Below, one piece after another: positions 1,583 to 31,015 of a stretch of 64,000 bases of DNA. Source of the stretch: an uncultured Pseudorhodobacter sp. (GTDB taxonomy: Bacteria > Pseudomonadota > Alphaproteobacteria > Rhodobacterales > Rhodobacteraceae). The number at the start of each line of letters is the position of its first letter. Within the stretch, counting starts at the first letter, position 1. Location: assembly GCA_913062925.1 (NCBI GenBank), contig CAJXWJ010000001.1, positions 1 through 64,000 of the forward strand. The letters are read 5' to 3'. The notes beneath the pieces are model-generated. The model did no database searches and was not told where the DNA came from. It worked only from the letters and a program-made list of their open reading frames with translations. A program made the position numbers and the translations under genes.

Positions 1583-2014
1583 TCAAACCGCCCGGTCCAG
1601 CCGCGTCGACAGATGGATCAGGCTTTCGCTCGATTTCACCCCCGTCAGCCCGCCGATCTGATCCAGCACCCCGTCCAGCACCTGCGTATCCGCCGCTGCA
1701 ATCTGCAACAACAGATCAAACCGCCCCGAGGTGGTAAACACCCGCTCAACCTCGGCCACCGCCTTCAGCCGGCTCAGGATCCCTGCTTGCGACCGTGGCT
1801 CGATGGTCAACAAAACCGAGGCCCGCAGCCGGCCTTGCCGCGCGGCCTCGCCCAGTTTCAGCGTATAGCCCGCGATCACGCCGCTGGTCTCCAACCGCTC
1901 CAGCCGCGCCTGAATGGTCGAGCGCGCCACCTTCAAACGCCGCGCCAAAGTCGCCACAGACATGCGTGCATCCGCCCCCAGCAGTGCCAAGATGTTGCGA
2001 TCCAGCTCATCCAT
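1583..2014 (-). CDS. Lrp/AsnC family transcriptional regulator
   Basis: A 143-residue protein, the normal length for a single Lrp/AsnC subunit. The N-terminal winged helix-turn-helix (residues 1-60) begins MDELDRNILALLGADARMSV, with RLKVARSTIQARLERLE as recognition region. The C-terminal half (about 65-140) is the ligand-binding RAM domain. The gene is divergent from the decarboxylase at 2225, so it probably controls that gene in response to an amino acid such as ornithine, lysine or arginine; this is inferred from position. A palindrome covers its own start codon and suggests autoregulation. The ligand cannot be read from the sequence. Confidence 0.9.
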   Translation of the reverse strand: MDELDRNILALLGADARMSVATLARRLKVARSTIQARLERLETSGVIAGYTLKLGEAARQGRLRASVLLTIEPRSQAGILSRLKAVAEVERVFTTSGRFDLLLQIAAADTQVLDGVLDQIGGLTGVKSSESLIHLSTRLDRAV

Positions 2015-2025: not shown

Positions 2026-2098
2026 CCTTTTTTGGTTATTATAACGAAGAATTCCGGCATTTATATAGTTTTGTTCGGTGAAATTGTAGCCCATATGC

Positions 2099-2224
2099 GG
2101 CATCCTAAGTTGCAGGAAAAGGGCGGCTCATACGCACCTGGCCTGGTTGGAAAAACCATGCAGGTGCCGAGCCCCAAAAGGCAGCGGAGGGACTTGCATC
2201 TTGTTGGCAGAAAGGATCACGCCG
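2099..2224 (+). ncRNA. speF leader: Structured 5' leader of the decarboxylase gene, speF-like RNA
   Basis: The 5' region holds a long nested hairpin. GGCTC (2125-2129) pairs with GAGCC (2169-2173), GCACCTG (2134-2140) with CAGGTGC (2161-2167), and TGGTT (2144-2148) with AACCA (2154-2158). ATCCT at 2102-2106 is complementary to AGGAT at 2213-2217, which contains the ribosome-binding site of the next gene. The speF motif is a known alphaproteobacterial leader RNA found upstream of ornithine decarboxylase-type genes, and this context fits. I matched structure and context, not a covariance model, so the family name is probable rather than proven. Confidence 0.6.
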
Positions 2225-3370
2225 ATGGGACTGTCCAAGACAATCTGGACCAATCCGACCGAGTATTTGCGCACACAGCAGCCGGAAAATCCGGTGCTGT
2301 TTTTCGCACCCCAAGCGGTGCAGGCCTTGGCGCGCACATTCCTGAACGGGTTTCCGGGTTTGGTGACCTATGCGGTCAAATCGAATCCTTCGGAAGAAGT
2401 GATCGAAAACCTGATCGCGGCAGGGGTCAAAGGCTTTGACTGCGCCTCGCCCTTCGAGATTGACCTGATCCGGCGCTTGGCGCCCGATGCGGCAATCCAT
2501 TACCATAACCCCGTGCGCTCGCGCACAGAAATCGCCTTTGCGGTCAAACATGCGGTCAAAAGCTATTCTGTTGATTCCAAAACAGAATTGGCAAAGCTGA
2601 TCGAAATGGTGCCGTCCGAGGCTTGCGAGATTTCGGTGCGCTTCAAGCTGCCGGTTGCGGGGGCTGCCTATAACTTTGGGGCGAAATTTGGCGCCACGGC
2701 AGAAGATGCAGTGGACTTGCTGCGCACGGTGGCTGCTGCGGGCTATATCCCCTCGATCACCTTCCATCCGGGCACGCAATGCACCGATCCCGCCGCTTGG
2801 GCGTCTTATATCCGCGAAGCTGCGGTGATTGCGCAAAAAGCGGGCGTCAAGATCGCGCGTCTGAACGTCGGCGGCGGCTTTCCAAACCACCGCGCGGTTG
2901 GGGTGATGCCACAGTTGCAAGCCACCTTTGACATCATCGACGCGGTCACGGCCGAGGCCTTTGGCGACGCGCGCCCGGCGCTTGTCTGCGAACCCGGTCG
3001 CGGCATGTGCGGCGATGCCTTCACGCTGGCCTCGCGCGTCAAAGCCGTGCGCGACGACATGCATGTGTTTTTGAACGACGGGCTTTACGGCGCGCTGTTC
3101 GAGATGGGCCAGATCGGCATCATCGACCGCATCGACGTGATCTCGGCCGAAGGCGTGCCGCGCCATGGTGAAAGCCTGCCGCGGATCTGTTTCGGTCCGA
3201 CCTGCGATTCGGTCGACCGTCTGCCCGGCGATGTGCCTTTCCCCTCTGACATCGCCGAGGGCGATTTCGTGATCTGGCATGGCATGGGTGCCTATTCCAC
3301 AGTCACCAACAGCCGCTTTAACGGCTTTGGCGAGCTGAGCATGGTGACGGTGCTGACCCAAACGGTTTAA
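2225..3370 (+). CDS. PLP-dependent ornithine/lysine decarboxylase (fold type III)
   Basis: Decarboxylates ornithine to putrescine, and in some relatives lysine to cadaverine; cytoplasmic. The 381 residues carry the alanine-racemase-like barrel with PLP lysine K52 in YAVKSNPSEEV. Other family marks are HPGTQC, the glycine-rich phosphate-binding LNVGGGFPNHR, EPGRGMCGD, and the C-terminal GPTCDSVDRL that supplies the active-site Cys and Asp across the dimer. The start at 2225 is chosen because AAAGGA lies 8 nt upstream and because the N-terminus then matches the family; an in-frame ATG at 2147 lies inside the leader hairpin. A speF-like leader precedes the gene and a strong terminator follows it. 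With the amidase at 6810 it gives two routes to putrescine. Substrate preference between ornithine and lysine is uncertain. Confidence 0.9.
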   Translation: MGLSKTIWTNPTEYLRTQQPENPVLFFAPQAVQALARTFLNGFPGLVTYAVKSNPSEEVIENLIAAGVKGFDCASPFEIDLIRRLAPDAAIHYHNPVRSRTEIAFAVKHAVKSYSVDSKTELAKLIEMVPSEACEISVRFKLPVAGAAYNFGAKFGATAEDAVDLLRTVAAAGYIPSITFHPGTQCTDPAAWASYIREAAVIAQKAGVKIARLNVGGGFPNHRAVGVMPQLQATFDIIDAVTAEAFGDARPALVCEPGRGMCGDAFTLASRVKAVRDDMHVFLNDGLYGALFEMGQIGIIDRIDVISAEGVPRHGESLPRICFGPTCDSVDRLPGDVPFPSDIAEGDFVIWHGMGAYSTVTNSRFNGFGELSMVTVLTQTV

Positions 3371-3460: not shown

Positions 3461-5746
3461 ATGTCGAAATTTGGCGCAGCGCAGGGTGTGGGGCGGCTGG
3501 AAGATATCCGGCTGCTGACGGGCGAGGGGCGCTATGTCGATGATATCACCCCCAAAACAGCCCTTCACGGCTATTTCCTGCGCGCGCAGATGGCACATGC
3601 GGGGATCACGGCGCTGGATCTGGCGGCGGCGCGTGCGGCTGATGGCGTGCATCTGGTGCTTGCGGCGGCCGATCTAGAGGCGATGGGCGTGATCTTGGGC
3701 ATGACCGGCGCGCAGGTGCGCACGCGTCAGGGCGGCAAGGGTGCTGGCCCCGAACGTCCGGTGCTGGCGCGCGACGCGGTGCGCTATGCCGGCGAGGCGG
3801 TGGCCTTGGTGGTGGCCGATAGCCTGAGCCAAGCGCGCGACGCGGCAGAGCTGATCGGGCTTGATGTCGAAGAGCGCCCGGTGATCACCGCTTTGGTGCC
3901 TGGCGGCGAGGCCATTCATCCGCAAGCCCCCGGCAATCTGGCGTTTGACTACAGCCTTGGCGACGAGGCGGCGGTGGCTGCGGCCTTGGACGCTGCGGCG
4001 CATCGGGTGGCTTTGGATGTGGTGCACAACCGCATTATCGTGGCCTCGATGGAGCCGCGCGGCTGTTTTGCCGAATGGCAAGACGGGCGGCTGCATCTGG
4101 CGGTGAACGGGCAGGGCGTCTGGGTGCAAAAGGGCGAGCTTGCGCGGCAATTGCGGCTGGACCCTGCGGCGGTGCGGGTGACCAACCCCGATGTCGGCGG
4201 CGGCTTTGGCATGAAGGGCATGGCCTATCCCGAATATATCGCCATCGCGGCAGCCGCGCGGGCCTTGGGGCGTCCGGTGCGTTGGATGTCGGACCGATCC
4301 GAAGCGATGCTGACCGATAACGCTGGCCGCGATTTGCTGGCGCGGGCAGAGCTTGGCTTTGACGCCGATCTGAAAATCACCGGCCTGCGGGTGCATATCG
4401 TCTCGAACCTTGGCGCCTATAACTCGCAATTCGCGCAGATGATCCAGACCGAGCTTTATTCCAAGGTGCTGACCGGCATCTATGACATCAAAACCGCCCA
4501 TATGGGCGTGCTGGGGGTCTATACCAACACCACGCCGGTTGATGCCTATCGCGGCGCGGGGCGGCCCGAGGCGAATTTGACCATCGAGCGGGTGATGGAT
4601 CACGCCGCCCGCGTGCTGGGCGTGGACGGCTTTGATCTGCGAATGCGCAATGTGATCAAGGACTTCCCCTATCCGCTGTTGTCGGGCGCGCAGGTCGATT
4701 GCGGCGATTTCGCCAATGTGCTGGCGGTTGCGCGCGCGCGGGGCGATGTGGCGGGCTATGCCGCGCGTAAGGCTGCCAGTGAAGCGCGCGGCATGCTGCG
4801 CGGGCTGGGGGTGGCAAGCTATCTCGAGGCGATCTTGGGCTCGCCGGTTGAAACCGCGCGGGTGGTGTTGCAGCCTGACGGCGGCGCGACGCTTTATGTC
4901 GGCACCCAGTCCAACGGGCAGGGCCACGAGACGGTTTACGCCCGCATGCTGTCCGAGCAAACCGGCATTGATGTCGCATTGATCCGCATTGTGCAGGGCG
5001 ACAGCGATGCCATTCCAACCGGCGGCGGCACGGGGGGCTCGCGCTCGGTCACGGTGCAGGGCACGGCGACAAAGGCGGCCGTGGGCGCGCTTGTGGCTGG
5101 CATGATCGACTTTTTGCAAAGCGATGTCGGGGTGAAAGAGGTCAGTTTTGACGGCACAGCGTTTTCGGCCCCCAATTCCAACATGAGCCTGACCATGGCC
5201 GAGGCTGCGGAATGGGCGCGCGAAAAGGGGCGCGACGATCTGCTGGATGTAGCCCAAACCATTAAACTGCAAGCCGGATCCTATCCCAACGGCTGCCATC
5301 TGGTCGAGGTCGAGATTGACCCAGAAACCGGCGCGATGGTGATGGACCGCTACACGGTTGTGGATGATTTCGGCACGCTGATCTCGCCCGAATTGGTGGC
5401 AGGGCAGGTGCATGGCGGCATTGCCCAAGGCTTTGGCCAAGCGGTGATGGAGCTGGCGGTCTATGACGATCAGGGCCAGCTTTTGACCGGCAGCTTTATG
5501 GATTACGCCCTGCCACGCGCCACCGATCTGCCCTATTTCGACATTCACCACGCCCCCACCATCACCCAGACCAACCCCTTGGGCATGAAGGGCTGCGGCG
5601 AGGCGGGCACGGTCGGCTCTTGTGGCGCGATTTCCAACGCGGTGCTGGATGCGCTGGCGCCGCGCGGCGTGACATCGGTGGATATGCCCTTCACGCCCTC
5701 GCGGATCTGGGCGTGGTTGCAGGAGGCACAGGCTGTCTCTGCTTAA
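3461..5746 (+). CDS. Orphan molybdenum hydroxylase large subunit, CoxL form II-like
   Basis: A 761-residue xanthine oxidase-family catalytic subunit that binds molybdopterin cytosine dinucleotide. Residues 1-120 form the a/b hammerhead domain (GEGRYVDDI near residue 28). Then come the Mo-binding motifs NPDVGGGFGMKG, DAYRGAGRPEANL, GGGTGGSRSVTVQG and the catalytic-Glu motif GCGEAGTVGS (E714). AYRGAGR is the form II active-site loop, as distinct from the AYXCSFR of true CO dehydrogenase, so the substrate is probably an aldehyde or heterocycle. The FeS and FAD subunits that normally sit beside it are absent. The start at 3461 follows GGAGGG; the in-frame ATG at 3392 lies in a terminator. moaC and moeA in this window could supply its cofactor. 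Confidence 0.88.
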   Translation: MSKFGAAQGVGRLEDIRLLTGEGRYVDDITPKTALHGYFLRAQMAHAGITALDLAAARAADGVHLVLAAADLEAMGVILGMTGAQVRTRQGGKGAGPERPVLARDAVRYAGEAVALVVADSLSQARDAAELIGLDVEERPVITALVPGGEAIHPQAPGNLAFDYSLGDEAAVAAALDAAAHRVALDVVHNRIIVASMEPRGCFAEWQDGRLHLAVNGQGVWVQKGELARQLRLDPAAVRVTNPDVGGGFGMKGMAYPEYIAIAAAARALGRPVRWMSDRSEAMLTDNAGRDLLARAELGFDADLKITGLRVHIVSNLGAYNSQFAQMIQTELYSKVLTGIYDIKTAHMGVLGVYTNTTPVDAYRGAGRPEANLTIERVMDHAARVLGVDGFDLRMRNVIKDFPYPLLSGAQVDCGDFANVLAVARARGDVAGYAARKAASEARGMLRGLGVASYLEAILGSPVETARVVLQPDGGATLYVGTQSNGQGHETVYARMLSEQTGIDVALIRIVQGDSDAIPTGGGTGGSRSVTVQGTATKAAVGALVAGMIDFLQSDVGVKEVSFDGTAFSAPNSNMSLTMAEAAEWAREKGRDDLLDVAQTIKLQAGSYPNGCHLVEVEIDPETGAMVMDRYTVVDDFGTLISPELVAGQVHGGIAQGFGQAVMELAVYDDQGQLLTGSFMDYALPRATDLPYFDIHHAPTITQTNPLGMKGCGEAGTVGSCGAISNAVLDALAPRGVTSVDMPFTPSRIWAWLQEAQAVSA

Positions 5747-30938: not shown

Positions 30939-31015
30939 CGGGGCGTAGCGCAGTCTGGTAGCGCGGCTGCTTTGGGAGCAGTAGGTCGAGAGTTCGAATC
31001 CCTCCGCCCCGACCA
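30939..31015 (+). tRNA. tRNA-Pro (anticodon TGG)
   Basis: A 77-nt cloverleaf. The acceptor stem is CGGGGCG/CGCCCCG with discriminator A and an encoded CCA. The D-arm is GCGCAGTCTGGTAGCGC and the anticodon stem is GCTGC/GCAGT with loop TTTGGGA, giving anticodon TGG. The T-arm loop GTTCGAATC is standard. The first base C1 and pair C1-G72 are usual for bacterial tRNA-Pro. Confidence 0.97.

Follow-up and report, generated by a model that had tools for sequence, protein, structure and literature searches.

The speF leader of enterobacteria relies on translation of a reading frame that it contains. It controls an ornithine decarboxylase gene, and does so with alternative RNA folds (PMC6386406). In alphaproteobacteria, a conserved leader that is likewise named speF (RF00518, PMC1273637) precedes genes of the ornithine decarboxylase type, and another ornithine decarboxylase leader, the odc1 motif (uORF-25-1), sequesters the region of translation initiation (PMC8632094). 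The odc1 leader encodes an upstream peptide of 11 residues and holds the ribosome-binding site inside a stem, with two UUG start codons located 2 nt apart and the main frame beginning from UUG (PMC8632094). A pseudoknot joining the 5' end to the stem loop is a further feature of the odc1 motif.

The leader described here precedes an ornithine decarboxylase-like gene in a 64,000-nucleotide stretch of DNA (the window), and it shares certain traits with each of these systems. As with alphaproteobacterial speF, a conserved leader is found in alphaproteobacteria before an ornithine decarboxylase-type gene, but its sequence, structure and host lineages are different, and the distance from speF to the start codon is much greater than the one seen here. 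The odc1 motif also belongs to an alphaproteobacterial ornithine decarboxylase and sequesters the initiation region, whereas, when compared with the published description of odc1, the gene in the window uses an AUG at 2225 and carries its Shine-Dalgarno sequence in a loop. Control of an ornithine decarboxylase gene by a leader with alternative RNA folds would be a likeness to the enterobacterial element, but no conserved leader reading frame of that type was found here. Apart from the association with the gene, none of the defining features examined for alphaproteobacterial speF and for odc1 is present. Finally, translational riboswitches of Rhodobacterales, such as the SAM/SAH class (RF01727, PMC2864571), are similar in that an order-restricted leader is tied to a single metabolic gene, but they show no sequence match with the decarboxylase leader. 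Searches of the freely accessible literature yielded no description of this leader. Provisionally, therefore, it is considered to be a new conserved leader RNA that is unlisted in Rfam and distinct from both speF and odc1.

Features of the decarboxylase leader and its surroundings, with positions numbered from the first nucleotide of the window
Feature	Positions	Strand	Basis
Lrp/AsnC-family regulator gene, divergent from the decarboxylase gene	1583-2014	-	PF13404, PF01037
Near-palindrome TTGGTTATTATAACGAA in the region separating the promoter from the divergent lrp gene	2032-2048	.	consensus TTCGTCATTATAACGAA
Promoter-like pair, TTGTTC (2071-2076) and CATATGCG (2092-2099)	2071-2099	+	spacing, inference
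Ultraconserved block AGGAAAAGGGCGGCUCAUACGCACCUGGCCUGG, 33 nt	2114-2146	+	comparison of leaders
Helix a (central hairpin of the first-pass annotation), GCACCUG (2134-2140) with CAGGUGC (2161-2167)	2134-2167	+	minimum-energy fold
Hairpin P2, GGUU (2145-2148) with AACC (2154-2157)	2145-2157	+	pairing in relatives
Helix b, AUGCAGGU (2158-2165) with ACUUGCAU (2192-2199), abutting the start-codon helix	2158-2199	+	covariation
Start-codon helix, UCUUGUUGGC (2199-2208) with GCCGAUGGGA (2221-2230), AUG inside	2199-2230	+	pairing, covariation, folding
Shine-Dalgarno AAAGGA in the 12-nt loop of the start-codon helix	2211-2216	+	sequence, 8 nt upstream of ATG
Ornithine decarboxylase-like gene (fold type III PLP decarboxylase)	2225-3370	+	PF02784 (6.5e-34), PF00278

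The best solved relatives of the encoded decarboxylase in the PDB are lysine/ornithine and ornithine decarboxylases. Because none of the NCBIfam equivalogs searched reaches its own cut-off with this protein, we infer its substrate, and the gene is taken to be a putrescine-making, ornithine decarboxylase-like one.

An earlier, first-pass annotation of this DNA had likened the leader to speF, an identity that did not withstand a direct comparison. A covariance search with RF00518 produced no match at E values up to 10 between positions 1900 and 2400, and none in the whole genome from which the window derives; the same search found RF00518 in 11 of 289 genomes of the class. When the complete Rfam collection was applied to the window, nothing except a tRNA matched at the gathering score. 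Membership was also rejected on the basis of sequence, given that AAAGCAACGACGG...GGGCTTTTTTGGTC and the further conserved blocks downstream of it in real RF00518 leaders are absent from 2100-2224. Although a decarboxylase of the same kind lies downstream in alphaproteobacteria in both cases, the unrelated sequence and layout make the chance that this RNA is a speF element vanishingly small.

Short reading frames are used in decarboxylase leaders elsewhere (PMC6386406, PMC8632094), and a leader-peptide attenuator resembling the enterobacterial speF leader or odc1 could be imagined for this gene as well. However, the leaders have no common start codon before or within the conserved block, single-base insertions and deletions just upstream of it shift all frames, and the window itself has a stop codon just upstream in one frame. 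No upstream frame of 11 residues of the odc1 type is conserved. The absence of a shared start codon together with the frame-shifting indels argues against a translated leader, and this explanation is judged to be very improbable. A UUG at 2204 was likewise considered as an alternative in-frame start and was discarded, as it stands in frame with the ATG only in roughly two thirds of leaders.

The 33-nt block is almost invariant. Over a core of 28 nt, 136 leaders are 99.3% identical to the consensus, compared to 54% at the third codon positions of their genes. The leaders were collected both as those of orthologues found by protein homology and as loci found with a motif pattern for the block, and because most were gathered with this pattern, the apparent conservation of the block is inflated; the block is nevertheless present in 34 of the 38 leaders collected by homology. 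At 147 of 150 motif loci the decarboxylase gene lies directly downstream on the same strand. Two of the other three loci are truncated where the retrieved sequence ends, and the third is taken as a chance match in coding sequence. This last match, 21 nt long (L143, positions 111-131, from Labrenzia), falls inside a coding sequence resembling 2-oxoglutarate dehydrogenase E1 (KGGSYAP).

The distribution of the motif is narrow. Of 394 Rhodobacteraceae genomes, 58 contain it, and of 385 genomes sampled across the class one does, namely the window's own. In decarboxylase leaders from other families, agreement with the block never exceeds 20 of its 33 positions. Among the genomes sampled, the motif was thus found only in a group of Rhodobacteraceae, to which it appears to be confined on this evidence. 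The leader and the gene occur together in Cereibacter, a genus that includes laboratory strains. A record titled as an Exiguobacterium profundum metagenome-assembled genome (CP059262.1) also carries this Rhodobacteraceae leader and its gene, and this record looks misnamed or mixed.

The structure with the best support in the leader is the helix that encloses the start codon, which was overlooked by the first-pass annotation and extends beyond the interval treated there (2099-2224), to position 2230. Ten of its positions are paired in 95-100% of 135 leaders, a count from which four further leaders lacking the anchor sequence were excluded. The helix comprises 9-11 base pairs and is rich in G-U, which accounts for about half of its pairs; by itself it is predicted to contribute -9.8 kcal/mol. 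Nearly all single-sequence folds contain it, and the A of the AUG is paired with a median probability of 0.996. The gene start is conserved as GCCGAUGGGACU, and the loop, rich in A and G and bearing the Shine-Dalgarno sequence, is retained in relatives.

Evidence that this helix is maintained by paired changes comes from its outer pair, 2199-2230, which is U-A in 108 leaders and C-G in 20. Codon 2 of the gene (GGA or GGG) covaries with the facing leader base, which is C in all 18 of the GGG genes included in a tree of the coding sequences. This tree shows nine changes of codon 2, and the leader base agrees in six of six supported independent comparisons (p = 0.03). The concordance between codon 2 and the leader base is 0.976, whereas none of 38 other wobble columns exceeds 0.82. 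Judging from these sequence comparisons, both the conservation of 2114-2146 and the covariation of the start-codon helix are far beyond chance. In its broader claim, that this decarboxylase of the polyamine pathway has a structured cis-regulatory leader whose structure touches translation initiation, the first-pass annotation was right.

With about half of its pairs being G-U and with such modest predicted stability, the start-codon helix might function as an RNA thermometer or as a passive, always-on damper, and the block might merely be a standby site for the 30S subunit, which would agree with the purine-rich AGGAAAA being unpaired in most predicted folds. A standby site, however, has no need for 33 nt of near-identical sequence, and the helices upstream are conserved as well. 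This explanation is regarded as quite unlikely. One relative (L025) lacks the block yet has a perfect start-codon helix, and therefore the two appear to be separable modules. More generally, in three orthologues (L025, L016 and L022) the block is absent or degenerate and the start-codon helix is largely retained.

Different means of masking the ribosome-binding site had been proposed for this leader, namely pairing of ATCCT (2102-2106) with AGGAT (2213-2217). Both strings are present at these positions, but they are not paired with each other in the predicted fold, and their complementarity is not conserved, an outcome that the first-pass annotation had itself named among the grounds for refutation. 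ATCCT is found in 103 of 164 leaders and AGGAT in 57; the two occur together in 45, compared to 36 expected from the marginals. In several congeners, ATCCT is retained and AGGAA(T) stands in place of AGGAT. Moreover, ATCCT is located downstream of the promoter-like pair and upstream of the conserved block. This places it at the putative transcription start or immediately ahead of it, and it might for this reason be only partly included in the RNA. That start is placed near 2104-2107 from the position of sequence elements. The spacing of the promoter-like pair is constant in 90 of 93 leaders, and a scan with the strict sigma-70 consensus gave no match.

The same annotation had described a nested hairpin. 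Such a hairpin is indeed present in the predicted minimum-energy fold (around 2121-2177), but the stability of the fold is unremarkable, as 20 of 200 shuffled sequences are at least as stable (z = -1.20). Thus, the fold of the leader by itself proves nothing, and it is conservation that carries the case.

Comparison of the leaders reveals two structural groups, with the window belonging to group 1. In this group, helix a encloses the hairpin P2, which is paired in 100% of 24 diverse group 1 leaders. In helix a, 89% of cells are paired and covariation is absent; 9 of 24 leaders have a mismatch at one of its pairs. As an invariant sequence, the block leaves no room for covariation in the pairs that it forms. 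The base that mismatches in helix a (2162) varies instead together with 2195, immediately upstream of the start-codon helix. The pair 2162-2195 occurs in all four Watson-Crick types and is paired in 75% of cases versus 44% expected. This pair is part of helix b, which shares the 3' strand of helix a, so that the two helices are mutually exclusive. Four pairs of helix b include 13 cells changed on both sides, compared to 5.0 in shuffles (sd 1.7), a count reached by 0 of 500 shuffles. Because a phylogenetic sign test for helix b was not significant, this helix is graded as suggested. The predicted energies favor helix a over helix b, with an advantage of about 6 kcal/mol in the window and a median advantage of 3.8 kcal/mol over 84 leaders. 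Given that only helix b covaries among the two helices that compete for the strand, the leader could be bistable.

The block has other partners in group 2 (GCGGC/GCUGC and GCaCCUGGC/GCCGGGGC), and in this architecture 93% of cells are paired, versus 33-46% in slid versions. The group 2 counterpart of P2, GGUUGG/CCRACC, exhibits compensatory changes on both sides. The 33-nt strand thus keeps its sequence despite having different partners in groups 1 and 2, as is typical of a recognition site. The block might accordingly be bound by a protein, or by a small RNA acting in trans, that governs translation of the decarboxylase or the stability of its mRNA. However, no second copy of a 26-nt core of the block exists in the genome on either strand when up to three mismatches are allowed, and so no long perfect complement is present elsewhere in the genome. 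Such a site is considered rather unlikely.

Taken together, the findings probably reflect a cis-regulatory leader, specific to the family, which sequesters the start codon and so controls decarboxylase translation, with the block as a receptor or landing site and with the balance between helices a and b as the connection. The comparison of leaders supports the placement of the start codon in a conserved helix and of the Shine-Dalgarno sequence in its loop, and with the start codon so placed, initiation would require the helix to open. Pairing of the strand 2158-2167 either back with the block, as in helix a, or forward, as in helix b, suggests two folds, and in the second of these helix b would stack on the start-codon helix. 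The block could serve as the sensing or landing part for a small molecule, a protein, a small RNA or a 30S standby site. Its occupancy would then shift the a/b balance, and with it the ease with which the start-codon helix opens, thereby tuning putrescine synthesis. Transcription might be set by the divergent Lrp-type regulator. Because the start-codon helix persists in both alternative folds, the predicted folds give no account of how it opens.

A rival explanation is that the leader is a metabolite-binding riboswitch, in which the block, helix a and P2 form an aptamer for ornithine, putrescine, spermidine, arginine or a similar compound, and binding shifts the a/b balance. An aptamer would be in keeping with the ultraconserved unpaired AGGAAAA and UCAUAC beside conserved helices, with the single target gene in one pathway, and with the mutually exclusive helices. 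The supported start-codon helix resembles an expression platform, to which the suggested alternative helices would have to be coupled. Nevertheless, the leader precedes one gene only and in one family group, and none of six pathway metabolites was bound by the speF leader, which is associated with a similar gene (PMC1273637). A riboswitch is put forward tentatively, as less likely than not. The fuller proposal, a new riboswitch class exclusive to Rhodobacteraceae that senses the polyamine pathway and controls decarboxylase translation via a start-codon helix reaching into, and co-evolved with, codon 2, is both tentative and somewhat doubtful.

The leader represents a new candidate for a genetic switch that governs polyamine synthesis. 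At least three unrelated leaders, namely speF, odc1 and the present one, appear to precede such decarboxylase genes in alphaproteobacteria, which suggests that control by RNA at the point where the polyamine pathway begins has been invented repeatedly. The base pairs proposed here offer sharp targets for experiments, including the paired change with codon 2. If a ligand is found, it would settle, for at least one such leader, a question that has been open since the 2005 report of speF.

The surroundings of the leader present additional clues. A pattern for the consensus of the near-palindrome is present upstream of 107 of 147 leaders, and this element is likely a candidate operator of the Lrp/AsnC regulator. 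The gene order valS-lrp-decarboxylase of the window is also annotated in Cereibacter azotoformans. The next gene downstream in the window (3461-5746) encodes a large subunit resembling molybdopterin-binding aldehyde oxidase/xanthine dehydrogenase, whereas in C. azotoformans the neighbor of the decarboxylase gene is a DUF2235 protein. Because this neighbor differs, the decarboxylase gene is probably not part of any fixed operon. Farther along, a tRNA-Pro (TGG) at 30939-31015 is the sole match of Rfam and ARAGORN in the entire window.
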